Below, one piece after another: positions 6,371-19,809 of a stretch of 64,000 bases of DNA. Source of the stretch: Micromonospora echinospora (lineage in GTDB: Bacteria; Actinomycetota; Actinomycetes; Mycobacteriales; Micromonosporaceae); the NCBI RefSeq assembly GCF_900091495.1, contig NZ_LT607413.1:4851001-4915000 (forward strand), given 5' to 3'. A program made the translations under genes and the position numbers. Each line of letters begins with the position of its first letter. Position 1 is the stretch's first letter. The notes under the pieces were generated by a model. That model saw nothing but the letters and a program-made list of their open reading frames with translations, was not told the DNA's origin and did no database searches.

Positions 6371-7729
6371 GTGCCCAAGCAGATCATCCTCGCCGCGCAC
6401 TTCCCCGGCGTGAACAACACCACCGTCTGGAGCGACCCCGCCTCCGGCAGCCAGATCGACTTCGCGTCCTTCGTTCACCTGGCCCGCACCGCCGAGCGGG
6501 GCCTGTTCGACTTCTTCTTCCTCGCCGAAGGGCTGCGTCTGCGTGAGCAACGCGGACGTATCCACGACCTGGACGTGGTGGGCCGGCCCGACACCCTCAC
6601 CGTGCTGGCAGCCCTCGCCGCCGTCACCACCCATCTCGGCCTCGCCGGCACCCTCAACGCGACCTTCCGCGAGCCGTACGAGTTGGCCCGGCAGCTCGCC
6701 ACCCTGGACCACCTCTCCGGCGGGCGAGCCGCCTGGAACGTGGTCACCACCTCCGACGCGTTCACCGGGGAGAACTTCCGCCGTGGCGGCTTCCTCGACC
6801 GGTCGCTGCGGTACGAGCGGGCCGCCGAGTTCGTCCGCACCGCGCGCGAGTTGTGGGAGTCCTGGGCAGTCGATGCCGTGGCCGGTGACCGCGACACCGG
6901 CCGGTACCTCGCCACCGCCGAACCGGGTGCCTTCACCTACCACGGCGACCAGTTCGACATCACCGGCCACTTCACCGTGCCGCGCAGCCCGCAACTGCAC
7001 CCGGTGATCCTGCAGGCCGGTGACTCACCCGACGGACGGGAGTTCGCCGCCGCCAGCGCCGACGCGATCTTCTCCCGCCACGGCACCCTCGACGCCGGAC
7101 AGGAGTTCTACCGGGACGTGAAGTCCCGGCTGGCTCGCCACGGCCGCGACCCGGACGATTTGAAGATCATTCCCGGGGTCACCGTCGTGCTCGGCGATAC
7201 GGACGCCGAAGCCCACGAGAAGGCCCACCACATCCGCCGCCAACAGGTCAGCCCACAGACCGCCCTCCTGCTGCTGGAACAACTGTGGAACCGCGACCTG
7301 TCCGGCTACGACCCCGAAGGGCCGCTACCCGCCACCGACCCGGACATCTCCGCTGAGGCGATCAGCCGTGGCCGGGCCGGCATGTACCCCGACCCGGTCG
7401 CCACCGCCCGCCAGTGGCGCACCCTCGCCGAGGAGAAGGGTCTCGGCATCCGCGACCTGATCATCGAGGTCACCGGCCGGCAGTCCTTCATCGGCACCCC
7501 GCAGCAGGTCGCCGAGCAGATGAACCACTTCGTGCAGTCCGACGCCGCCGACGGGTTCATCCTGGTGCCGCACCTGACCCCCGGCGGCCTCGACGAATTC
7601 GTGGACGAGGTCGTCCCGCTGTTGCAGGAACGTGGTGTGTTCCGTACCGAGTACACCGGCACCACCTTGCGCGAGCACCTCGGCCTCGGTGCTGCCCGAC
7701 CGGTCGCGCCCGTGGCGGCTCTGCGATGA
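6371..7729 (+). CDS. NtaA/DmoA-family FMN-dependent monooxygenase
   Basis: This 452-residue protein matches the NtaA/SnaA/DszA/SoxA family of FMNH2-dependent monooxygenases. Typical elements are the AAHFPGVNNTTVW start, [22 protein letters not shown], and the QAGDSPDGREFAA stretch. Family members oxidise nitrilotriacetate, dibenzothiophene sulfone or dimethyl sulfide. The GTG at 6371 is preceded by a GGAGAA site and gives the family N-terminus; a longer in-frame extension would lie inside the preceding gene. The next reading frame begins at ATG 7726 in an ATGA overlap. A reduced-flavin supplier is encoded at 10452. Confidence 0.92.
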   Translation: MPKQIILAAHFPGVNNTTVWSDPASGSQIDFASFVHLARTAERGLFDFFFLAEGLRLREQRGRIHDLDVVGRPDTLTVLAALAAVTTHLGLAGTLNATFREPYELARQLATLDHLSGGRAAWNVVTTSDAFTGENFRRGGFLDRSLRYERAAEFVRTARELWESWAVDAVAGDRDTGRYLATAEPGAFTYHGDQFDITGHFTVPRSPQLHPVILQAGDSPDGREFAAASADAIFSRHGTLDAGQEFYRDVKSRLARHGRDPDDLKIIPGVTVVLGDTDAEAHEKAHHIRRQQVSPQTALLLLEQLWNRDLSGYDPEGPLPATDPDISAEAISRGRAGMYPDPVATARQWRTLAEEKGLGIRDLIIEVTGRQSFIGTPQQVAEQMNHFVQSDAADGFILVPHLTPGGLDEFVDEVVPLLQERGVFRTEYTGTTLREHLGLGAARPVAPVAALR

Positions 7730-8043
7730 GCACGCCCACCCCGCCGACCGTCACGGCGGTGACCATCTGCCGGCGGCGCTGGCAGGATAGCGACGCCGCA
7801 CGGCTGCGCGCGGCCATGACGAGCGAACTTCGCGACCGCTACGCCGACCGGCCCACCGACCCCGTCCATCTCCCGCCAGCGGAGGCGGTCGACGCGGCCC
7901 CCGTCGCCTGGACCGGCGTCGCCACGGCCCGGATCCCGGTCTTCCCGCCCTACGACGTGCTGCCCTGGTCGCTCTGCCTCGCCAGGACGCTCGCCCCGCC
8001 GCCTGTGGACCCGCACCAGCCCGGAAGGACGGCACCGGCATGA
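7726..8043 (+). pseudogene. GNAT acetyltransferase remnant with internal deletion
   Basis: This 105-codon frame joins the two ends of a GNAT N-acetyltransferase. Residues 1-65 carry the usual opening (CRRRWQDSDAARLRAAM). They are followed directly by [16 protein letters not shown], which in this family is the extreme C-terminus of a protein of about 160-170 residues. The central strands and the acetyl-CoA-binding R/QxxGxG/A loop are missing, so acetyltransferase activity is not expected. The reading frame was kept and it still overlaps both neighbours (ATGA at 7726 and at 8040). It may therefore persist only as a translated spacer in the operon. Confidence 0.7.
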
Positions 8044-9104
8044 AGTTCCTGCTCATCACCCTCATCACCCACCTGCCCGACCCGGTGACCGGGCAGCGCA
8101 AGAGCACCACCGAACGGTTCCGCGAGGTCGTCGACAACGCGGTGCTCGCCGAGCAACTGGGCTTCGACGGGTACGGCGTCGGCGAGCGCCACGAGCGGCC
8201 CTTCATCTCCTCCTCACCACCGGTGGTACTCAGCCACATCGCCGCCCGCACGTCCACCATCCGGCTGTTCACCGCCGTCACCACCCTCAGCCTGCTGGAC
8301 CCGGTCCGGGCCTACGAGGACTACGCCACCCTGGACCACCTCTCCGGCGGCCGACTGGAGCTGATCATCGGCAAGGGCAACGGCGCCGCCCAGGCGCAAC
8401 TGTTCCACGTCACCGCCGACGACCAGTGGGAACGCAACCGGGAAGGCTACGAGCTGTTCCGGCGGCTGTGGCGGGAGGAGAAGGTCACCTGGTCCGGCCG
8501 GTTCCGCCCGCCGCTCACCGATGCCGAGACCTGGCCCCGACCACTGCAACAGCCCATCCGGGTCTGGCACGGCAGCGCCACCAGCCGCGAGTCCGTGGAC
8601 CTGGCCGCCCGCTACGGAGACCCGCTCTTCTCCGCCAACGTCACCAACCCCATCGAGCCGTACGCCGAGCTGATCCGCTACTACCGCGAGCGGTGGCTGC
8701 ACTATGGCCACGACCCGGCCGACGCCCTGGTAGGCGCCGGCACCGCCGGCTTCTACGCGGCGCGGACCTCCCAGGAGGCGGTCACGACCTATCGACCCAT
8801 CTTCGACGCGCGGGTCGCGGCGCTGCGGGAACTCGGCGTGCAACCGGTCTTCGACACCCTCGAGGACGCCATCGAACGCAGCTCGATCCTGGTCGGCAGC
8901 CCGCAGCAGATCATCGACAAGGTGCTGCGCTACCACGACCGGTTCGGCCACGAAGTGATCCATCTACCGGCCGACGCCGGTGGCCTGACCGACAAGCAGC
9001 ACCGGCAGACGCTGGAGCTCTTCCAGGCCGAGATCGCCCCCGTGCTACGCCGGGCCATCCCCAGCCGTCCCCTGCACCGACCGTCGTCCGCCGTCACCGC
9101 CTGA
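8040..9104 (+). CDS. LLM class flavin-dependent oxidoreductase
   Basis: This 354-residue luciferase-like protein has the [11 protein letters not shown] motif near residue 45 and the [16 protein letters not shown] element near residue 105, both typical of F420/FMN-dependent LLM enzymes. The middle contains [22 protein letters not shown], as in the family subset that acts on small aliphatic compounds. Its ATG overlaps the stop of the GNAT remnant (ATGA, 8040-8043), so it is translationally coupled. It is one of five intact LLM genes in this cluster and probably uses FMNH2 from the nearby reductases. The substrate cannot be inferred. Confidence 0.91.
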
Positions 9105-11016: not shown

Positions 11017-12123
11017 ATGAGCCCCCGGTTCCTCTGGTACATCCCCAACGAGATCGATCCGGGCCACCGGGGCGACGACCTCGTGGACGATCACAACAGC
11101 CTGGAGACACTCACCCGCCACGCGAAGACTCTCGAGGCCCACGGCTGGGACGGTGCGCTCATCGGCACCGGCTGGGGACGACCCGACACCTTCACGGTCG
11201 CCACCGCGCTCGCGGCTCGGACGACCACCTTTCAGCCGCTGGTCGCGATCCGACCCGGCTACTGGCATCCGGCCAACTTCGCCGCCGCAGCGGCCACGTT
11301 GGACCACCTCACCGGCGGCCGGCTGCTGGTCAACATCGTGTCGGGTTCCGACAACCCGTCCGCCTACGGAGACCGGGAAGGGAACCAGGCTCGGCGGTAC
11401 GCCCGCACCGGAGAGTTCCTCCGGCTGGTCCGCAGGCTGTGGACAGCGGAGGACGTCACCCACCACGGCGACCACTTCCACGTCACCAACTCCACCGTGA
11501 TGCCGAGGATGACCGGCCGAGCCGGACGCCGCCACGCCCCGCTCTACTTCGGCGGTGCCTCCCCGGCCGCCGAGCGGGTAGCGGCCACCGAGGCCGACGT
11601 ACAGCTCTTCTGGGGTGAGCCGCTCGACGACATCCGCGAGCGGATCGATCGGCTCAACCGCCTCGCCGCCGAGCTGGGACGGGAGCATCCACCACTCGAG
11701 TTCGGGCTACGGATCACCACGCTGGTCCGGGACACCCGCGAACAGGCCTGGGCCGACGCGGAGGCCAAGGTCGCGCGGCTGGCCGCGGCCGGCCATAGCG
11801 GAGCCGGGGGCCCGGGCTGGCAGACCGCGGCGGGTCAGCGGCGGCTGCTCGACCTGGCCGCCCGGGCCGACGTGCTCGACGACAACCTCTACACCGCACC
11901 GGGCAGGTTCGGCGCCATCGGGGCCGGTGCCACCTGGCTGGTCGGCTCGACGGAGGACGTCGCGAAGTCGCTGCGCAACTATCAGGACCTGGGCATCACC
12001 CACTTCATCCTCTCCGACACCCCCTACCTGCCGGAACTCAAACGCCAGGGCGACCAGCTCCTCCCGCTCCTGTGTGGACGACTGGCGCCGGCAACCAGAC
12101 CGCAAGGTCGACACCCATCGTGA
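11017..12123 (+). CDS. LLM class flavin-dependent oxidoreductase, SsuD-like (alkanesulfonate monooxygenase type)
   Basis: This 368-residue protein shows the SsuD-group signature. It has FQPLVAIRPGYWHPANFAA, LDHLTGGRLLVNIVSGSDN and the later LYFGGASPAAERVAA. SsuD uses FMNH2 and O2 to release sulfite from alkanesulfonates, and this is the clearest hint that the cluster handles organosulfur compounds. AAGGAGGAGGTG lies upstream of the ATG. A long in-frame C-terminus ends at 12123. The DUF1684 gene follows after 29 nt. Confidence 0.91.
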   Translation: MSPRFLWYIPNEIDPGHRGDDLVDDHNSLETLTRHAKTLEAHGWDGALIGTGWGRPDTFTVATALAARTTTFQPLVAIRPGYWHPANFAAAAATLDHLTGGRLLVNIVSGSDNPSAYGDREGNQARRYARTGEFLRLVRRLWTAEDVTHHGDHFHVTNSTVMPRMTGRAGRRHAPLYFGGASPAAERVAATEADVQLFWGEPLDDIRERIDRLNRLAAELGREHPPLEFGLRITTLVRDTREQAWADAEAKVARLAAAGHSGAGGPGWQTAAGQRRLLDLAARADVLDDNLYTAPGRFGAIGAGATWLVGSTEDVAKSLRNYQDLGITHFILSDTPYLPELKRQGDQLLPLLCGRLAPATRPQGRHPS

Positions 12124-12152
12124 CCTCGCCACCGTCCGGACGGGAGATCTCC

Positions 12153-12989
12153 ATGAACATCCCCACATCGCACCTCACCGAGTCGTTCCTCCAGGAGTGG
12201 CAGGACTGGCACCGGCGGCACGAGGAGATCCGCGCCGACCCGCACGGCTTCCTCGCCATCACCGGACTGCACTGGCTCACCGCACAGCCACAGCGGTTCC
12301 CCGACGCTCCCGGAGAGTGGCACACCACCCCTGACGGCGTCGTGGTCGACCTCGCCGACAACGAATACCTCGTCGTCGACGGCCGGCAGGTGATTGGCCG
12401 GCACGCGTTCGAACGAATCGCCGAGCGGGACAGCGTCCAGGTCGCCGCCGGCGCGGCGGTGGTGGAGATCGCCAGGCGGGGCGGGCACGACATCGTCCGT
12501 CCCCGGCACCCCGACCACCCCCTCCGCGCCGCGTACCGGGGCACACCGACCTACCCACCAACGCTGGACTGGGTGGTGCCCGGACGATTCGTGCCCTTCG
12601 ACGAGCCACGCCCGACCACGGTGGGTGCGGTGGTCGACGGACTCTCGCACGTCTATCCGACACCCGGGCGGATCGAGTTCGAGGTCGGAGGGCTGCCGCT
12701 GAGCCTGACCGCCTTCCCCGGCACCAGGCCGGGCAGCCTGTCGGTGCTGTTCACCGACGTCACCTCCGGCATCAGCACCTACCCCGCCAACCGGTCGCTC
12801 GCCATCGAGGCACCCGACGAACAAGGTCGGGTGACGCTCGACTTCAACCGGGCCACCAACCTGCCCTGCGCCTACACCGACTTCGCCACCTGCCCGCTGC
12901 CCCCGGCCGGGAACCGGCTACCGATCGCCGTCGAGGCCGGCGAGAAGATCCCACCCGAGCGGTCGCCTGCCGGCAAACCCAGCCGATGA
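12153..12989 (+). CDS. DUF1684 family protein
   Basis: This 278-residue protein shows the DUF1684 pattern: an N-terminal EWQDWHRRHEEIRADPHGFLAITGLHWL and a C-terminal block with LDFNRATNLPCAYTDFATCPLPPAGNRLPIAVEAGE. The biochemical role of DUF1684 is not established. Members are cytoplasmic and are often found next to monooxygenases or sulfur genes. The ATG follows CGGGAGATCTCC. Its stop overlaps the start of a small downstream frame (ATGA, 12986-12989). It is placed in the operon between an SsuD-like LLM and an FMN reductase. Confidence 0.88.
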   Translation: MNIPTSHLTESFLQEWQDWHRRHEEIRADPHGFLAITGLHWLTAQPQRFPDAPGEWHTTPDGVVVDLADNEYLVVDGRQVIGRHAFERIAERDSVQVAAGAAVVEIARRGGHDIVRPRHPDHPLRAAYRGTPTYPPTLDWVVPGRFVPFDEPRPTTVGAVVDGLSHVYPTPGRIEFEVGGLPLSLTAFPGTRPGSLSVLFTDVTSGISTYPANRSLAIEAPDEQGRVTLDFNRATNLPCAYTDFATCPLPPAGNRLPIAVEAGEKIPPERSPAGKPSR

Positions 12990-13104
12990 CAACCACCCGG
13001 CCAGCACACCCACCGGACGACCGTCCGCGCCGTCCCTACCGGCACCCCCGTCGCGTGGGGTGTCGGTCATGCCCTGGCTCCGCGACCGTCCGACGTCACC
13101 GGCC

Positions 13105-13237
13105 GAACGTAGGAGGAGAGCTGTCCGTCCGGCTCGACGCGGCCTACGCCGACGAACATCTGGTCACCACCATCACCCGTGACCACGCCGCCCGGGTCGC
13201 ATCGTTCGAACCGCTCGGCAGGGAACGACACCGATGA
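13105..13237 (+). pseudogene. C-terminal remnant of an LLM flavin-dependent oxidoreductase
   Basis: The last 34 or so codons of a frame that opens at 12986 read LDAAYADEHLVTTITRDH and RVASFEPLGRERHR. This lines up with the C-terminus of the LLM protein at 9122-10246 ([28 protein letters not shown]). The upstream codons of the 12986 frame look non-coding. The sequence is therefore interpreted as the tail of a lost LLM gene left between the DUF1684 gene and the FMN reductase. An 83-residue protein from 12986 to 13237 is possible but unlikely to be functional. Confidence 0.6.
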
Positions 13238-13262
13238 CCCCAAGCCGACCGACAGGAGAGTC

Positions 13263-13838
13263 ATGACCGTCACCACCGTCGAGCTGATCGGCAACCCCCG
13301 CGCCGGCTCACGTACCCGCACCCTCGCCGACGCCGTCGTCACCGAACTGGCCAGCCATCTCGAGCGCGCTGGCAACCCACTGAGCCGACCCACCGTGCTG
13401 GACCTGGCTGAACTCGTCGGCGTGTCCTTCGGACCCGCGGCCGCCCGGCCGGACGCCCCGGTGGACGACCCCTTCGCGCCGGTACGGGCCGCCCGGCTGC
13501 TGGTCGTGGCCACCCCGGCGTACAAGGGCACCTACACCGGCCTGTTGAAGATCTTCCTGGATCAGCTCGGGCCGGGCGACCTGGCCGGCGTGATCGCGTT
13601 GCCGGTTGCGGTCGCCGGCGCTCCGGCCCATGCCGACCGTACGGCGACATCACTGCGTGACCTGCTGTCCGAACTGGGTGCTGAGGCGACCATCCCGCCG
13701 CTGACCGCGCTGGAGTCCCGGCTTGCGGCACCTGTCGAGGCCGCCGCCGAGTGGGTCGCCGCACACGCCGGACAGCTCGGCGAGCTGCTGGCCCGCACGC
13801 CGGCGCGGGGGAACCTCAGACTCCATCACAGCCGGTGA
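13263..13838 (+). CDS. NAD(P)H-dependent FMN reductase, SsuE/flavodoxin-like
   Basis: This 191-residue protein has the flavodoxin-like reductase fold. It has GNPRAGSRTRTLADAV at the FMN-phosphate loop, then VVATPAYKGTYTGLLKIFLDQL, the hallmark of the SsuE/MsuE family. It would supply FMNH2 to the SsuD-like and other LLM monooxygenases. The ATG follows GACAGGAGAGTC. The C-terminal LHHSR lies close to an insertion-sequence zone beginning about 100 nt downstream, so the operon may once have extended further. This gene ends the recognisable cluster. Confidence 0.92.
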   Translation: MTVTTVELIGNPRAGSRTRTLADAVVTELASHLERAGNPLSRPTVLDLAELVGVSFGPAAARPDAPVDDPFAPVRAARLLVVATPAYKGTYTGLLKIFLDQLGPGDLAGVIALPVAVAGAPAHADRTATSLRDLLSELGAEATIPPLTALESRLAAPVEAAAEWVAAHAGQLGELLARTPARGNLRLHHSR

Positions 13839-14086: not shown

Positions 14087-14917
14087 ATGGGTGATCGGAA
14101 GCCGTACCCCAGCGATGTCACCGACGCGCAGTGGGCGTTGATCGGGCCGTTCCTGCGGGCGTGGAAGGCCAAGCGGGTCTCGGTGTCGGGGCATCAGGGT
14201 GACTACGACCTGCGGGAGATCGTGAACGCGATCCTCTACCAGAACCGGACCGGCTGTCAGTGGGCGTACCTGCCGCACGACCTGCCGCCGAAGTCCGCGA
14301 CCTACTACTACTTCGCCCTGTGGCGGGACGACGGCACCGACCAGGCGATCCATGATCTGCTGCGCTGCCAGGCCAGGGAGAAGGCCGGCCGGACCGAGGA
14401 TCCGACCGCGGTCGTGTTGGACAGCCAGTCGGTCCGGGCGGCGAACCATGTCCCGGCCGCCACGACCGGCAAGGACGCCGGCAAGAAGGTGTCCGGCCGC
14501 AAGCGCGCCCTGGCCGTGGACACCCTCGGTCTGGTCATCGCGGTCGTGGTGACCGCCGCCTCGGTCACCGACAACGCCATCGGCATCCGACTGCTCGACA
14601 CAGTCGTCGAGCGCGCCCCGACGGTCACCCGGGCGTGGGTCGACGCCGGGTTCAAGCAGGACCTCGCGCTGCACGGCGCCGTCCTCGGGGTCGACGTCGA
14701 GGTCGTCAAACGATCCGACACCCGACCCGGGTTCGTGCCAGTACGCAAGCGGTGGATCGTCGAGCAGACCTACGGCACGTTGATGCTGCACCGCCGGCTC
14801 GTGCGCGAGTACGAGAGCCGCCCGGAATCGGCCGTGTCACGAACGTTGTGGGCGTCGATGGTCACCATCGTGCGCCGGCTGACCGGCACCAGCACACCGT
14901 CCTGGCGACACCGGTGA
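14087..14917 (+). CDS. IS5-family DDE transposase
   Basis: This 276-residue protein has the IS5 layout. An N-terminal DUF4096-type domain (DVTDAQWALIGPFL, YQNRTGCQWAYLPHDLPP) is followed by the DDE catalytic domain with VVLDSQSVR, VDTLGLV and AWVDAGFK, and a C-terminal RWIVEQTYG stretch supplying the glutamate. The frame is intact, so the element may be active. Its TGA overlaps the GTG of the next ORF (GTGA, 14914-14917). Confidence 0.92.
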   Translation: MGDRKPYPSDVTDAQWALIGPFLRAWKAKRVSVSGHQGDYDLREIVNAILYQNRTGCQWAYLPHDLPPKSATYYYFALWRDDGTDQAIHDLLRCQAREKAGRTEDPTAVVLDSQSVRAANHVPAATTGKDAGKKVSGRKRALAVDTLGLVIAVVVTAASVTDNAIGIRLLDTVVERAPTVTRAWVDAGFKQDLALHGAVLGVDVEVVKRSDTRPGFVPVRKRWIVEQTYGTLMLHRRLVREYESRPESAVSRTLWASMVTIVRRLTGTSTPSWRHR

Positions 14918-15321
14918 ACCTCGCCGTAATCCTCGACCTGATCACCGCACGCGAAGCCACCGCCGATCAGGCCGCCGACCGGCTACGCGAGCAGATCACC
15001 GCCCTCACCGCCGACCTCGCCCGCATCGAGGGCGAGCTGGCTGACCTGAAGGTCACCCGCACCACGCTGCGCATCCTCACCGCCGCCGAGTTCACCGCCG
15101 ATGACCCGACGATAGCCAGCGCCCCCTACCAGCAGATCCTGACGGTCCTCGACACCACGACCACCGGCATGCGGGCCAAGGACATCTGCCTCGCCCTCGG
15201 CGTCGACCCCATCCCGAAACACGTCGAGAGCGCCCGCGCGAAGCTCAAACGCATGGTCAAGCATCACGTCCTGACCGAGAACCAACCCGGAGTGTTCACC
15301 CTCACCCCGAAACGGACCTAA
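14914..15321 (+). CDS. Accessory protein of the IS element with putative winged-helix C-terminus
   Basis: This 135-residue protein is encoded within the IS and coupled to the transposase through a GTGA overlap. Residues about 10-45 are heptad-rich and probably coiled coil (ADQAADRLREQITALTADLA). Residues about 70-130 look like a winged helix (QQILTVLDTTTTGMRAKDICLALG, then VESARAKLKRMVKHHVLTE). No catalytic motif is seen. It may be a regulator or DNA-binding accessory of transposition; no function is established. Confidence 0.72.
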   Translation: MNLAVILDLITAREATADQAADRLREQITALTADLARIEGELADLKVTRTTLRILTAAEFTADDPTIASAPYQQILTVLDTTTTGMRAKDICLALGVDPIPKHVESARAKLKRMVKHHVLTENQPGVFTLTPKRT

Positions 15322-15352
15322 CCTAACGAACCGGCCTCTGAGAACATCCCGC

Positions 15353-15619
15353 GTGATCCTTGCCGTCAGCATGGCCCTCGTTCTTGCCGGCTGTGGTGGC
15401 GGACATGAAGGCAACTGGTCCAACGAGCAGCTACAGAAGGATGGGGCCGCCGCGGTCAAGCGCGACCTCGGTAAGGATGTGACCCTTCAATGCGAGGGTG
15501 GCCTCACCAACCGGCAGGGTTCGTCGATCCGCTGCAAGGGTTCGGACGGTATGGCCTACATCTTCGATGTGAAGAGCGAGGGTGAACTTCGCGCCAGCGG
15601 CGGCACCCAGCCGTTCTGA
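15353..15619 (+). CDS. Small lipoprotein, DUF4333-like
   Basis: This 88-residue protein starts at GTG 15353 with a short signal (residues 2-11) and a lipobox ending at Cys14 (LAGC). The mature part has two Cys (QCEGG, IRCKG) and the pattern GKDVTLQCEG, resembling the DUF4333 and DUF4307-like small lipoproteins of actinobacteria that carry one disulfide. The IS right end is only about 15 nt upstream. Its promoter or the very N-terminus may therefore have been lost, and the start is uncertain. Confidence 0.65.
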   Translation: MILAVSMALVLAGCGGGHEGNWSNEQLQKDGAAAVKRDLGKDVTLQCEGGLTNRQGSSIRCKGSDGMAYIFDVKSEGELRASGGTQPF

Positions 15620-15729
15620 CCCGGGCTGCGGCTTCCGCAGCGAGCACTGGCAGTCGCGCTGCCCCACCCGGCAACGTGGGCATCACAGTATTGATCAGAC
15701 CGCGCAGAAGGCTGTGGCCCGCACTCCAG

Positions 15730-15835
15730 ACGGTGGGTGGTGGAACGGACCCTGTCCTGGCTCACCGCCCATCGCCTCGCCCGGAACGGCGAAACCGCTC
15801 CGCCCCGGGCGGAAGCCATGATCCGCCGGGGCCGC
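15730..15835 (+). pseudogene. IS5-family transposase C-terminal fragment
   Basis: In the second + frame this stretch reads RWVVERTLSWLTAHR, the conserved C-terminal motif around the catalytic Glu of IS5 transposases, followed by a degenerate RAEAMIRRG. No upstream part of the gene is present. It abuts the N-terminally truncated IS6 transposase, marking a recombination junction. Confidence 0.65.
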
Positions 15836-15840
15836 CCGAG

Positions 15841-16500
15841 GTGATCGTGCTGGCGGTCCGCTGGTACCTGCGGTTCAACCTCTCCTACCGAGACGTGGAG
15901 GAGTTACTGGTCGAGCGTGGCGTCGAGGTGGATTACGTGACCGTCTATCGATGGGTGTAGCGGTTCACCCCGCTACTCGCGGACGCCGCCCGTTCCGCTC
16001 GTCACTCACCTGGGGACCGCTGGCACGTCGACGAGACCAACGTCAAGGTCAACGGCATCTGGCGATACGTCTGCCGCGCCGTCGACCAGTATGGTCAGTT
16101 CATCGACGTGCTCGTATCGGCGCGTTGGGACGCCGCGGCGGCCCGGCGGTTCTTCCACCGAGTCCTGACCACGCTGAAGGTCACGCCCAGCGAGGTGGTC
16201 ACCGACGCGAACCCGGTCTATCCGAGGGTGCTCGACGCCCTGGTTCCGTCGGCGTGGCACCACGTCGAACGGCACGCCAACAAACGGCACGCCAACAATC
16301 CGATCGAGGCCGACCACAGCCAGCTCAAGCACCGGCTCAGACCGATGCGCGGGCTACGTTCCGACCGCACCGCCCAGACGATCATGACCGGGCACGCCTT
16401 CGTGCAGAATTTCCGACGCGGACACGACGAACTCGCCACTGACGTCCCGCCCGGTCTGCGGGTGACGGTCGCGTTCACGGAGCTGGCGCGAGCGATCTGA
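15841..16500 (+). pseudogene. IS6-family transposase, 5'-truncated and interrupted by an amber codon
   Basis: The frame reads VIVLAVRWYLRFNLSYRDVEELL, then YRWV, then TAG at 15958-15960, then RFTPLLADAAR and on to TGA at 16498-16500. Family members have Gln or another residue at the stop, so CAG to TAG is likely. The catalytic D, D and E are all present (WHVDETNVKVNG, VVTDANPVYPRVL, IEADHSQLKHRLRPMRGL). The first 20 or so residues of the family are absent. A 12-nt tandem duplication gives RHANKRHANN just before the glutamate. The element is judged inactive. Confidence 0.8.
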
Positions 16501-16707
16501 TCAGTGCCCGGCTGACGCGGCTCGGCGTGTCCACCGATCCGCCAATGCAACAGCGCCTCGGGCACCTGCCCGGTGGCGCCGACTCCTGAGGTGGGAGGCA
16601 CCCTTCCCAGCTCCGCTCCCAGCCGGATCCCAGTCGACCGGCGGATGCTGCCCGCTGGGCACCCCACCTGGTGGTGTCCACCCGGCAACGAGGAGAGGAG
16701 GTGACAC

Positions 16708-16893
16708 ATGCGTAGGTTGTTGATCGTCACGATGGTGGCCGCCAGCATCCTCACTGCCGGCGGGGCACCTCGCGCCGACGAACTGCCGAACGTGCGGTAC
16801 AGCGCTGACGTACGCGATCCACCGCCGACCGGCCCGCCCGGCTTGACCACGGACGAGATCCCGGATCCCCCACCGGAGCGGGACAAGGGTTAG
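16708..16893 (+). CDS. Small secreted Pro/Asp-rich peptide
   Basis: This 61-residue peptide has a strong AGGAGGTGACAC site directly before its ATG. Residues 1-23 form a signal peptide (basic MRR, hydrophobic core to about residue 18, AxA-like end near PRA-D). The mature 38 residues are acidic and proline-rich (DVRDPPPTGPPGLTTDEIPD). No Cys, and no known family was recognised. It converges on the hydroxylase operon and is followed by a perfect hairpin. A secreted peptide or partner of that system is possible but unproven. Confidence 0.6.
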   Translation: MRRLLIVTMVAASILTAGGAPRADELPNVRYSADVRDPPPTGPPGLTTDEIPDPPPERDKG

Positions 16894-16901
16894 TTGGTTG
16901 T

Positions 16902-16939
16902 GGGTTGCGGGGCCACCGAGATCGGTGGCCCCGCAACCC
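16902..16939. terminator. Bidirectional hairpin terminator
   Basis: A perfect 16-bp inverted repeat, GGGTTGCGGGGCCACC at 16902-16917 and its complement at 16924-16939, with a 6-nt loop, lies between two converging genes that end at 16893 (+) and 16953 (-). There is no clear U tract, as is usual for actinobacterial terminators. Confidence 0.8.
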
Positions 16940-16952
16940 GTCGTTCCCGCCG

Positions 16953-17981
16953 TCAGGGATCGGCACGCACCAGCGGTGGGTGTAGATAGTGGTTGCCCGG
17001 GGGCACCTGGAAATGGTGCAGGCTCACCGTGGCGCTGATGTCCAGCGCGCGTACCCAGTGCCACCAACCGGCCGGCACGAACAGCGCGTCGCCCGGCTCC
17101 AGCACTTCCGCCAGGACGGTGGCCTGCCCGTACAACGGGTACTGGTCGAGGTCGGGCAGCTCGGCGTCGACATGGCTGTACGTCCCGCCCCGGGGATACA
17201 CCCGGGAACGCTGGTACGACGGCACGAGGCGGACGCGTTTACGGCCCATCACCTGGCACAGCAGGATGTTCATGTTGTCGTGGTGCAGGTTGGTGACCGT
17301 GCCGGCTGGCCCCAGCAACAGGGTCACCGCCTCCGGCAACAGAACTGGATCGATGATGCCGGGCACCGGCCTGATGTCCTGGGCCAACGGTTTGAGACCG
17401 TGCTGCCAGTTGTCGTTGCGCGCGACCATGTAGTAGTCGTTGGTCTCCCCACCCGTCTCGACCATGGTGAGGTAGTCGGCGAACGTCATCCGCGTCCGGT
17501 GTGCGTCGTGCTGCCAGCCATGCTCCGGATTGCCGTCCCGGCCGGTCATCACCTCGACCTCGACCTCACCCAGTCGGTCCCGCAGGCTGGTCGGCGACCA
17601 CTGCCGTCGGGCCGGCCAGTCGTCGACCGCCCCGGCCAGGATCACCGGCCGGTTGGCGAAGTAGTACCGGTCGAAGAACTCGGCAGCGCAGAGGCCGACC
17701 CGACGCTCCAGCCCGCCGGCCAGCTGTGCCGAGCGGAGATCGCCGTAGAAGTCCAGTAGCGACTCCTGCCAGGCGTACTCCCGGGCCAGCCGCAGGCAGG
17801 CCTGGAAGTACGGGTGGTCGAGCGCTCGGGTCAGCTCCTCGTCGACCACCGACCCGGACAGCCCCGCCGCCAACAGCGCCTCCCGGACCTCCCCGGCCGG
17901 CACCCCGAGAGCCAGGTTCTCGGCCGTCCAGGCCCGCCACTGCGGTGTGAGCCCGGCAAGCTCGGCGGCCGTCCGGGTCAT
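16953..17981 (-). CDS. JmjC/cupin-8 type Fe(II)/2-oxoglutarate-dependent hydroxylase
   Basis: This 342-residue protein has a 100-residue helical N-terminus and then a cupin-8 (FIH/JmjC-like) domain. FFDRYYFANRPVILAGAVDDWP is the family entry motif. TNLHHDNMNILLCQVMGRKRVRLV carries the HxD metal pair, and LEPGDALFVPAGWWHWVRAL supplies the distal His. The catalytic HxD...H facial triad is thus complete. Homologues hydroxylate side chains of proteins or peptides. ATG 17981-17979 overlaps the TGA of the preceding 64-residue peptide gene (ATGA), which makes that peptide the obvious substrate candidate. The same frame is open upstream into the SARP gene. Confidence 0.85.
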   Translation of the reverse strand: MTRTAAELAGLTPQWRAWTAENLALGVPAGEVREALLAAGLSGSVVDEELTRALDHPYFQACLRLAREYAWQESLLDFYGDLRSAQLAGGLERRVGLCAAEFFDRYYFANRPVILAGAVDDWPARRQWSPTSLRDRLGEVEVEVMTGRDGNPEHGWQHDAHRTRMTFADYLTMVETGGETNDYYMVARNDNWQHGLKPLAQDIRPVPGIIDPVLLPEAVTLLLGPAGTVTNLHHDNMNILLCQVMGRKRVRLVPSYQRSRVYPRGGTYSHVDAELPDLDQYPLYGQATVLAEVLEPGDALFVPAGWWHWVRALDISATVSLHHFQVPPGNHYLHPPLVRADP

Positions 17982-19094
17982 CGGGATTCCGGCAATCGGG
18001 ACGCCGCCCGGTCTCGGTGCGCCCCGGCCGGCTCGGCGGATGCGGCGACGTCCGGCAGGGGCAGCCGCCGCCGGGTACGTCCGTTCGACAGCTCGACGCA
18101 GTCGACGTAGTTGTTCTTGACGTTGACCTCGAACTCCGGCTCGGCGCTGGTCATCGGTCGCAGCCCACGCATGGTGTCTCCCGTCACAGTGGATGGTCGT
18201 GTGCTCGACGGTGCCATCGTCGGCTGGGATCCCGCTGGGATCCTCGGCGGTGCGGCGTGGCACCCACCACGACCGGCCACTGCTGGAAGGCGCCCATGGG
18301 AGTACGGCCCGGCCGGCCGGAAGGTCGAGGGAGGCGTCCTGGCCGAGGATCGCCGCCTCCAGGCGAAGCAGTCCCGCCCCGGGGTCGAGACCGAGGTCCC
18401 GGGCGATTCGGGTCCGCGCCCGGCGCACCACGGTCAGCGCGTCGCCCTGCCGACCGGTCCGGTACAACGCGATCGCCAGCAGCTCCCAGCCGCGCTCCCG
18501 TAACGGCTGTTCGAGCACGAGCGCCTCCAGCTCACCAAGCACCTCGGTATGCCGGCCCAGCGCCAGCATGGCGGTCAGTCGTGTCTCGGTGGCAGCGGCC
18601 CGCAACCCGTCGAGGCGGGCGATCTCCGGCAGCACGAACGACGCCTGTGCCAGATCGGCGTACGCCGGGCCGCGCCACAACCCGAGGGCACCGGTCAGGG
18701 TCGTGACGACCGCAGCGGGTCGCCCCCGTCGCAGCATCGTTACGCCGTTCGCGACCAGCGCGGTGAACCGTTCCGCGTCGACCTGCTCGGCCCGCACCCG
18801 GACGGCGTACCCGGGGCCTTCCCGGAGCAGCACCGTGCTCGGTGAGCGCGGAGGTCGGTCCGGTTCGAGCGCCCGCCGCAGTCCGGCCACGTAGCCGTGC
18901 AGGGTCGCCGGCCCGGCCGTACGCCCACCGTCGCTCCAGACCAGTTCCCGCAGCCGCTCGGCGGGCAGCATCCGCCCCCGGGCCGCCAGCAACGTGGCGA
19001 GCACCATGCGCTGTCGTCGGCCGCCGAGCCCCACTCTCGCCCCGTCGCGGTAAGCGGTCAGTGGTCCGAGTACGGAGAATTGCACGTCGGCCAT
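16953..19094 (-). CDS. SARP/BTAD transcriptional regulator, frame continuous into the hydroxylase
   Basis: From ATG 19094 the first 258 or so residues form a SARP: an OmpR-like winged helix (FSVLGPLTAY, LATLLAARGRMLPAERL, LHGYVAGLRRALEP) followed by a bacterial transcriptional activation domain (LRERGWELLAIALYRTGRQGDAL, RDLGLDPG). No stop follows. The frame passes through about 110 codons, of which roughly the last 60 overlap the peptide gene in another frame and look non-coding, and then enters the hydroxylase in phase, giving a 713-residue fusion. Either the SARP stop was lost or a real fusion exists beside free hydroxylase made from 17981. SARPs activate secondary-metabolite operons, and here it would control its own cluster. 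Confidence 0.7.
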   Translation of the reverse strand: MADVQFSVLGPLTAYRDGARVGLGGRRQRMVLATLLAARGRMLPAERLRELVWSDGGRTAGPATLHGYVAGLRRALEPDRPPRSPSTVLLREGPGYAVRVRAEQVDAERFTALVANGVTMLRRGRPAAVVTTLTGALGLWRGPAYADLAQASFVLPEIARLDGLRAAATETRLTAMLALGRHTEVLGELEALVLEQPLRERGWELLAIALYRTGRQGDALTVVRRARTRIARDLGLDPGAGLLRLEAAILGQDASLDLPAGRAVLPWAPSSSGRSWWVPRRTAEDPSGIPADDGTVEHTTIHCDGRHHAWAATDDQRRAGVRGQRQEQLRRLRRAVERTYPAAAAPAGRRRIRRAGRGAPRPGGVPIAGIPMTRTAAELAGLTPQWRAWTAENLALGVPAGEVREALLAAGLSGSVVDEELTRALDHPYFQACLRLAREYAWQESLLDFYGDLRSAQLAGGLERRVGLCAAEFFDRYYFANRPVILAGAVDDWPARRQWSPTSLRDRLGEVEVEVMTGRDGNPEHGWQHDAHRTRMTFADYLTMVETGGETNDYYMVARNDNWQHGLKPLAQDIRPVPGIIDPVLLPEAVTLLLGPAGTVTNLHHDNMNILLCQVMGRKRVRLVPSYQRSRVYPRGGTYSHVDAELPDLDQYPLYGQATVLAEVLEPGDALFVPAGWWHWVRALDISATVSLHHFQVPPGNHYLHPPLVRADP
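17978..18172 (-). CDS. Candidate precursor peptide (64 aa) coupled to the hydroxylase
   Basis: ATG 18172-18170 is preceded by GGGAG with a 5-nt spacer. The frame runs 64 codons to a TGA overlapping the hydroxylase start. The codons are almost all G/C-ending (for example AAC AAC TAC GTC GAC TGC GTC GAG CTG TCG AAC), which argues for real coding. The peptide starts MRGLRPMTSAEPEF, has a conserved-looking centre VNVKNNYVDCVELSNGRTR with one Cys, then a basic-Pro stretch RRRLPLPD and an Ala/Arg-rich tail. It has no signal peptide. It is interpreted as a ribosomally made peptide modified by the cupin enzyme; no known class was recognised. Confidence 0.6.
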   Translation of the reverse strand: MRGLRPMTSAEPEFEVNVKNNYVDCVELSNGRTRRRLPLPDVAASAEPAGAHRDRAASRLPESR

Positions 19095-19126
19095 CACCAC
19101 CCACCGCCTTCACCGGGTCGTCGTGG

Positions 19127-19720
19127 TCAGCGGGTCGGGTCACCGAGAGCGACACAGACGTTGTCCTGTCGACCGATCCCCAGGGTGAGCCGGCGGGTAC
19201 CGGCCGGGTTGATCGAGACGACGTGCAGCCCGTCGAGGACGTAGTAGCCACGCGGGTGCTGGTCTCCCGGCCGGAAGTCGAACCCCGCCGGCCCGACGAT
19301 GGTGTACCGCAGCCACCCGCCGTCCGGGCGGTATTCGAGCAGCCCGGCGCCGCCCACGTCCCGGCGTACGGCCCTCCCGGTGTCGGTGTTGACGAAGTCC
19401 ACGGTCAGTGGGCCGGCGTACTCCTCACGTCGGACGGCTCCGGTGGCGTAGCGGGCGAGCACCCGGACCCGTACGTCCTGGGAGACCACGCGGACGCGGA
19501 GCGGGAACGAGCAGTAGCGGCCGGCCGGCCCGGTCCATTCCTCCTGGACCGAGGGACGCCAGGGCTCGGGGCGGTCGCCGACCCCGCCTCGCCAATCGGA
19601 CGCAGCCACCGCGGAGCCGGGGCCTTGCCCGGCCACCGGGCTGGCGGGGGCGGCCACCACGGTCGCGGACACCATCAGCATCCCGAGCAGAGACCGAGTG
19701 ACGAACTTTCCCAGGCGCAT
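19127..19720 (-). CDS. Secreted protein of unknown function
   Basis: This 197-residue protein from ATG 19720 begins MRLGKFVTRSLLG with a signal peptide (hydrophobic core about residues 9-24, probable cleavage after an Ala-rich APASPVAG stretch). The mature part is beta-rich with two Cys (GRYCSFPLRVRVV and QDNVCVALGD) and resembles the small secreted actinobacterial proteins that lie beside lipase- or toxin-like genes. No enzymatic motif was found. An upstream in-frame ATG at 19747 is less likely because it precedes the signal sequence. It stands upstream of, and in line with, the SARP gene, about 26 nt away. Confidence 0.75.
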   Translation of the reverse strand: MRLGKFVTRSLLGMLMVSATVVAAPASPVAGQGPGSAVAASDWRGGVGDRPEPWRPSVQEEWTGPAGRYCSFPLRVRVVSQDVRVRVLARYATGAVRREEYAGPLTVDFVNTDTGRAVRRDVGGAGLLEYRPDGGWLRYTIVGPAGFDFRPGDQHPRGYYVLDGLHVVSINPAGTRRLTLGIGRQDNVCVALGDPTR

Positions 19721-19728
19721 GGCATCAC

Positions 19729-19776
19729 CTAACCAGTAAATGTTCATTAACCGGTGTCGATGACAATACTGGTTAG
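19729..19776. promoter_or_regulatory. Perfect 10-bp inverted repeat in the promoter of the secreted-protein gene
   Basis: CTAACCAGTA at 19729-19738 is mirrored by TACTGGTTAG at 19767-19776, with 28 nt between. The stretch is the most AT-rich in the neighbourhood and lies just upstream of the ATG at 19720. It could be an operator for a dimeric regulator, or a trace of an inserted element end. Confidence 0.45.
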
Positions 19777-19809
19777 TTACGCCGAGTCAAGGCACACTGT
19801 CCACACCTC

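Follow-up and report, generated by a model that had tools for sequence, protein, structure and literature searches.

A precursor-like peptide family encoded beside JmjC-type hydroxylases in actinobacteria and myxobacteria

A small gene lying directly ahead of a Cupin_8/JmjC-type hydroxylase gene in Micromonospora echinospora was found to belong to a family of precursor-like peptides that spans two distant phyla and is apparently undescribed. The gene lies in a window of 64,000 nucleotides (contig NZ_LT607413.1, positions 4,851,001 to 4,915,000), the window being the whole stretch of DNA that was analysed. JmjC hydroxylases are known to modify proteins in animals, and a few RiPP pathways use them for tailoring. 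In the present case, gene and enzyme probably constitute a minimal RiPP-like system, in which the peptide would be the substrate of the adjoining JmjC enzyme and would give a RiPP-like product. The family makes a good candidate for a novel type of peptide product formed by enzymatic modification; a JmjC hydroxylase would define a peptide family in two phyla that is unnamed in the HMM libraries tried, and the pair offers a simple two-gene system for testing side-chain oxidation. The features of the window are as follows.

16605..19805, no strand: 3.2-kb cassette, 91% identical to that of genome G670, with blocks at 79-85% against genome G036
16708..16893, plus strand: small protein of 61 aa, hydrophobic at its start and Pro-rich at its end, convergent, also present in G670
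16953..17981, minus strand: Cupin_8/JmjC 2OG-Fe(II) hydroxylase of 342 aa (Cupin_8 E 3.8e-42), predicted all-helical at residues 5-87, followed by a JMJD5/JMJD7-like barrel
17978..18172, minus strand: precursor-like peptide gene, 64 aa from 64 codons, of a conserved family (dN/dS 0.42 in its own frame against G670)
18098..18124, minus strand: nine-residue signature NVKNNYVDC, found by motif pattern (general form [HN]VKx[NST]Y[VP]xC)
18178..18182, minus strand: GGGAG ribosome-binding site for the peptide, 5 nt ahead of the ATG
18305..19094, minus strand: core of a SARP-type activator (Trans_reg_C and BTAD, the latter at E 3.8e-40), its frame open down to 16953
19127..19747, minus strand: protein with a signal-peptide-like start (judged by eye), upstream of the SARP and inside the shared cassette

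The peptide gene and its family

The initial annotation had proposed a 64-codon gene at 18172-17978 of the minus strand, with a good GGGAG site, strongly G/C-ending codons and an ATGA overlap with a cupin-8 hydroxylase gene, and each of these points was borne out. The frame encodes the 64-residue peptide MRGLRPMTSAEPEFEVNVKNNYVDCVELSNGRTRRRLPLPDVAASAEPAGAHRDRAASRLPESR, the GGGAG site lies at 18182-18178, GC at codon positions 1/2/3 is 0.71/0.55/0.85, and at the junction, CGATGACC, the TGA stop of the peptide overlaps the ATG of the hydroxylase. When the peptide stretch was compared with the 91%-identical cassette of G670, dN/dS was 0.42 in the peptide frame and 1.8 in the SARP frame, so the constraint there is on the peptide frame. 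This comparison, together with the recurrence of the gene beside homologous enzymes in two phyla, confirms at the sequence level that the peptide frame is a real gene, above chance. Across 17 precursor pairs (14 of the peptide family and three of a sister group), dN/dS stayed below 1 in 15 and exceeded it in L041/L080 and L062/L063. A search of NCBIfam with nine precursors at E 0.1 gave zero matches, and a Pfam search with the window peptide alone returned just a chance-level match to ArsA_HSP20.

Scanning genome contigs for the enzyme gave 43 loci, comprising 27 with a Cupin_8/JmjC enzyme at least 50% identical to that of the window and 16 others. The motif [HN]-V-[KR]-x-[NSTA]-Y-x-x-C was found in a nearby small ORF in 26 of the 27; in the remaining locus, L050, the sequence stops at the contig end, so that no motif ORF is visible. 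Among the 16 others, where the enzyme is 33-44% identical or, in L082, matches over 31 residues, and where some flanks are short, the pattern occurred in none. It was also present in every locus fetched for a strong HMM match (L083-L105 and L116-L152). A unit HMM of 35 positions, applied to 354 genomes of the window's family, matched 32 of them at E <= 0.01. Of these, 23 were strong (best E <= 7e-12) and nine were weak (E 0.003-0.008, two with stops) and taken as chance. All 49 unit matches at E <= 8e-8 in this family were stop-free. The myxobacterial phylum, to which G1104 (source of locus L041) belongs, had strong matches in 46 of the 195 genomes searched, again stop-free throughout. Among 396 genomes sampled across the phylum of the window, the peptide was detected in the window's own genome only, and a class sample of 394 genomes searched for the enzyme at E 1e-25 yielded, besides the window's genome, two further enzymes that are 34% and 32% identical.

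In place of the VDCVEL-like core that had been expected, the conserved part of the peptide proved to be [HN]VKx[NST]Y[VP]xC. Across 78 distinct units, counted after a pattern match in a weak-match genome (L109) had been removed, the residues are H64/N14, V78 and K77/R1 at positions 1-3, N52/G15/S10/T1, S48/N22/T7/A1 and Y78 at positions 4-6, and V58/P17/I2/S1, N38/T19/D19/E1/V1 and C78 at positions 7-9, an invariance that is overstated, since V, Y and C are preset in the pattern used for counting and positions 1, 3 and 5 are restricted by it. Conservation of the small frame, which the initial annotation had named as the test of its proposal, was upheld: the frame is kept beside homologous hydroxylases, is stop-free in the strong matches, and combines a fixed core with a variable tail. 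An Arg/Pro-rich tail follows the core, with PPPxxPPL in myxobacteria. Representative forms are SIPPHVKSNYVDC in Dactylosporangium, SIPAHVRSNYVEC in Catellatospora, and those of Myxococcus, Pyxidicoccus and Corallococcus (e.g., EAHVKNTYVNC or EANVKNNYVDC), which are encoded on the strand opposite to the enzyme.

Adjacency to the enzyme gene is a regular property of the family. The enzyme lies directly downstream on the same strand in 21 of the 23 loci that were retrieved for strong peptide matches in the window's family (exceptions L086 and L097), and within 1.3 kb in 36 of 37 further fetched loci (L116-L152, overlapping ones counted), the sole exception, L139, being without an enzyme and starting 276 bases from a contig end. 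An ATGA or GTGA ending was found in 24 of 26 distinct peptide ORFs of the window's family, four orphan copies included among the ORFs, and through it most actinobacterial peptide genes run into the start of the enzyme gene. Orphan copies with no adjoining enzyme gene occur in genomes G715, G714 and G691, loci L154, L155 and L156 being such copies, and in both L037 and L052 a second copy is separated from the enzyme by about 3 kb. The peptide is intact in G036 and G009 although their enzyme gene splits across two frames.

Several precursors carry two to three tandem units, and one of these is found in the window's own genome, where a 93-aa ORF with three unit copies (e.g., DHFPAHVKNSYVNCSEYAREARLTPPP) lies upstream of a paralogous enzyme, G000:C1:3589837, 57% identical to the window hydroxylase. 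Micromonospora relatives have precursors with single and with multiple units, and Minicystis rosea carries six tandem genes with the motif DVNVKxxYxxC. Judged from the predicted peptides, the tandem units and the six tandem Minicystis genes are hallmarks of multi-core precursors.

The hydroxylase

The description of the enzyme as a cupin-8 protein with an HxD...H triad proved correct. In addition to the Cupin_8 match, H233-x-D235...H308 and K248 are invariant in 25 aligned close homologues; H233, D235 and H308 form the putative metal triad, and by domain match and these candidate ligands the protein is a Cupin_8/JmjC 2OG hydroxylase. A profile of 31 relatives matched JMJD5 best (E 1.7e-42), followed by JMJD7, FIH, TYW5 and JMJD6. 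An AlphaFold2 model (pLDDT 88.9, pTM 0.83) submitted to Foldseek likewise found JMJD5 closest (E 2.4e-23, TM 0.81 by target), then JMJD7, TYW5 and FIH. The predicted fold is thus that of a JMJD5/JMJD7-like hydroxylase preceded by a helical domain of no assigned class.

This N-terminal domain (residues 5-87, all-helical in the predicted model) gave no Pfam match for the window copy and a sub-threshold match to Clp_N for a Myxococcus copy, and a PDB sequence search with it returned nothing significant. It is present in the enzymes of the sister branch as well, and it would be a natural candidate for peptide recognition. JMJD5 holds its target Arg via Glu238 and Tyr243 (PMC5862942). In an alignment read by eye, these residues fall on Met145 and Gly150 of the window enzyme (Ala in most relatives at 150), so the hydroxylation target is not readable from these positions. 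Arg hydroxylation exactly as described for JMJD5 was accordingly rejected, the two contacts not being conserved in the window enzyme.

Gene surroundings in actinobacteria

Over the 14 kb of the G670 locus and the 12 kb of the G036 locus, nothing but the cassette matches the window, and the 3.2-kb segment looks as would be expected for a mobile unit. The protein upstream of the SARP (19127..19747) gave no Pfam or NCBIfam match at E 0.001 for a 184-aa part. Clustering of neighbour genes revealed no exporter or protease common to all actinobacterial loci among the 40 largest clusters listed, and the ABC genes at 20-22.5 kb were dropped as a dedicated exporter since they lie outside the cassette common to G670. 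A defence system was rejected, as none of five proteins matched PADLOC, and so was plasmid carriage, the enzyme occurring in no plasmid record at E 1e-30.

Further genes were noted around individual loci. Transposase-like genes, so named by appearance only, lie at 14087-16500 of the window. In L035 (2164-5247) and L064 (6483-9632), a protein of about 1030-1050 aa is encoded divergently from the precursor gene, the L035 copy having no Pfam match. Two weakly NRPS-like genes lie ahead of the pair in L153 (1289-4126), and in L154 (21-5683) the orphan peptide follows AMP-ligase-like and phosphopantetheinyl-transferase-like genes; a link of these neighbours to nonribosomal assembly is possible.

The SARP had been regarded as part of the operon system, a view that the wider comparison did not sustain. 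By tblastn at E 1e-12, a SARP/AfsR homologue was found in five of 16 actinobacterial loci compared, window not counted (L157, L036, L044, L047 and L060), and in none of 26 myxobacterial-type loci; four other actinobacterial loci (L063, L064, L052 and L037) have a NarL-type response regulator. These counts mark the SARP as lineage-specific and outside the general system, which is something other than a SARP-controlled operon.

Myxobacterial surroundings, sister branch and origin

In the myxobacterial locus L041, the pair adjoins genes for an ECF sigma factor, a zf-HC2/TPR protein and a TPR-CHAT protease. A homologue of the CHAT protease was found in all 14 Myxococcaceae-type loci of the peptide group, and one of the L041 sigma factor in 13 of the 14 (L050 is cut off). 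Neither occurs in Minicystis or in any of the 16 actinobacterial loci compared. The L041 protein, the one CHAT protein examined, contains HxHG and AACSAG motifs. The zf-HC2/TPR gene (7572-8975) and the TPR-CHAT gene (11030-13777) flank the pair in this locus, and their TPR regions are 42% identical.

A sister branch (group 2; L065-L074 and L076) has enzymes 40-44% identical to that of the window over the matched part. Two or three enzyme genes lie close together in ten of its 11 loci (L068 is cut off), the third copies in L065 and L066 being without the metal ligands. Peptides with IVPNP, encoded on the opposite strand, occur in ten of the 11 loci; they are without the Lys-Tyr-Cys core, and most have a PPPxTPPL-like tail resembling that of the myxobacterial peptides. 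A CHAT homologue is present in nine of the 11 loci, and at E 1e-20 none of them encodes a protein closely homologous to the L041 sigma factor. The pattern argues for tail and N-terminal domain as a matched pair, with a core that may differ.

Among 28 enzymes placed in a tree, those from actinobacteria form one clade (95/96) nested among myxobacterial ones with moderate support (85/90 and 82/85). This nesting suggests that the system was transferred from myxobacteria to actinobacteria. The window enzyme is a long branch, and its exact place is unsure. One enzyme, from a record named Comamonas sp. KCTC 72670 (L053), groups with Myxococcus; the genome was counted in the myxobacterial phylum, and the record name is probably wrong.

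Proposed mechanism and alternatives

The initial annotation took the peptide for the substrate of the enzyme, giving a RiPP-like product of an unnamed class. Conservation beside homologous enzymes and the want of a library name agree with this; the modification, the modified residue and the product enter the following model as predictions. The peptide would be translated just ahead of the enzyme, coupled to it through the ATGA overlap. The nine-residue core [HN]-V-K-x-[ST/N]-Y-[VP]-x-C, followed by its Arg/Pro-rich tail, would then be bound by the adjoining JmjC hydroxylase, probably through the N-terminal helical domain, and one core side chain would be hydroxylated using Fe(II), 2-oxoglutarate and O2. 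In multi-unit precursors, every repeat would be processed. In Myxococcaceae, the adjoining TPR-CHAT protease may cleave the modified peptide, which would give CHAT proteases a possible role in peptide maturation. The Cys-bearing core could in turn crosslink or bind metal.

Analogy offers two candidates for the hydroxylated residue. The near-invariant Lys of the VK step is the first guess, plausible though far from secure, since basic residues are the targets of the closest relatives with solved structures (Arg for JMJD5, Lys for JMJD7), and BipG hydroxylates Orn. The Asn/His preceding VK comes second as a rather less likely target; this residue type would also be offered by the IVPNP core of group 2, and FIH, which hydroxylates Asn and His in V-N/H contexts, provides a precedent. 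On a broader and tentative reading, the system would be a new RiPP class built on a JmjC hydroxylase. Its precursors would carry one or several [HN]VKx[ST/N]Y[VP]xC cores and a Pro-rich follower, in myxobacteria PPPxxPPL, that the N-terminal helical domain recognises, with maturation by caspase-like TPR-CHAT proteases in myxobacteria, an IVPNP sister branch with tandem JmjC genes and the same follower, and a Micromonosporaceae copy derived from myxobacteria.

The peptide might instead be an intracellular regulator or sensor, whose O2- and 2OG-dependent hydroxylation alters how it binds a regulator encoded nearby (SARP, NarL-type response regulator or ECF/anti-sigma), the pair then acting as an oxygen or metabolic switch with no natural product. 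A regulator gene (SARP, response regulator or ECF sigma factor) does lie near many pairs, and FIH uses the same JmjC-type fold for oxygen sensing. The type of regulator, however, varies by lineage and the peptide core does not, and precursors of two or three units and six tandem genes fit product amplification better, which leaves this explanation unlikely. Somewhat more improbable still is a role as partner subunit or activator of the hydroxylase, with the true substrate elsewhere: tight adjacency and overlapping stop and start codons would suit it, but whole-unit repeats in one chain are odd for a subunit, as are copies away from enzyme genes (L154, L155, L156 and the second copies in L052 and L037).

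A further alternative arises from the reading frame of the SARP. The initial annotation placed this activator directly upstream, and a SARP-type protein does start at 19094, but the stop-free frame that it shares with the hydroxylase had been missed. The two lie in one 715-codon open frame (16953-19100) with no stop in between, the peptide being encoded in another frame within it, and the shared frame is likewise open in the G670 cassette. In G036 the SARP frame ends ahead of the peptide; as this copy has a deletion and a hydroxylase gene split in two frames, it does not settle the ancestral state. That SARP and hydroxylase are one fusion protein of about 710 aa, with the 64-codon frame an accidental overprint, is highly improbable, since the shared frame, stop-free as it is and with a dN/dS of 0.56 from few changes in the 130-bp linker ahead of the peptide stretch, reaches 1.8 where the peptide frame gives 0.42, and the peptide also occurs beside enzymes without an upstream SARP and, in myxobacteria, on the opposite strand. 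Frame-wise dN/dS and these other contexts exclude the accidental overprint; a fusion product may be made as well. Uninterrupted SARP/JmjC frames are present in the window (16953-19100) and in L105, where automated gene calling could predict a fusion and so mask the peptide.

Comparison with known systems

With the substrate reading preferred here, the closest comparisons are with JmjC-type enzymes that modify proteins or peptides. FIH belongs to the same superfamily with a weaker match, and its Asn/His target resembles motif position 1; FIH, however, is an animal protein regulator, compared here by overall sequence and fold match. JMJD5 and JMJD7 are the best matches in sequence and fold, JMJD5 being an arginyl C3-hydroxylase (PMC5862942). 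The bacterial enzymes differ from JMJD5 in their extra N-terminal domain, in the small peptide gene next door and in the Glu238/Tyr243 contacts. Esi, a Cupin_8 repressor of epothilone genes, is likewise a myxobacterial Cupin_8 protein with an extra N-terminal domain; its authors report DNA binding and no homologue found in Myxococcus xanthus DZ2 (PMC5442856). The enzyme family studied here, in contrast, is present in an M. xanthus strain (L049), a comparison made by description.

Distant bacterial JmjC homologues in RiPP-like contexts have been noted (PMC12710340). In the literature searched, from which most subscription journals fall outside coverage, no report of the motif or of the peptide-JmjC pair was recognised, and six exact motif strings did not occur. 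JmjC action on RiPP precursors is itself already known from the biphenomycin-type enzymes BipG, BpmG and PbsQ, JmjC/cupin-like proteins that hydroxylate a ribosomal precursor peptide at Orn (PMC12707348, PMC12257519). The systems are alike in combining such an enzyme with a ribosomal precursor, here a candidate one that would be the substrate. The biphenomycin hydroxylases work with an MNIO, an arginase and a B12-radical SAM enzyme on an FRF-type motif, whereas here the JmjC protein is the only enzyme common to the loci compared and the precursor motif is different, a distinction drawn from description. Within the searches made, the precursor family, the JmjC protein as the only common enzyme and the link to CHAT proteases appear to be new.
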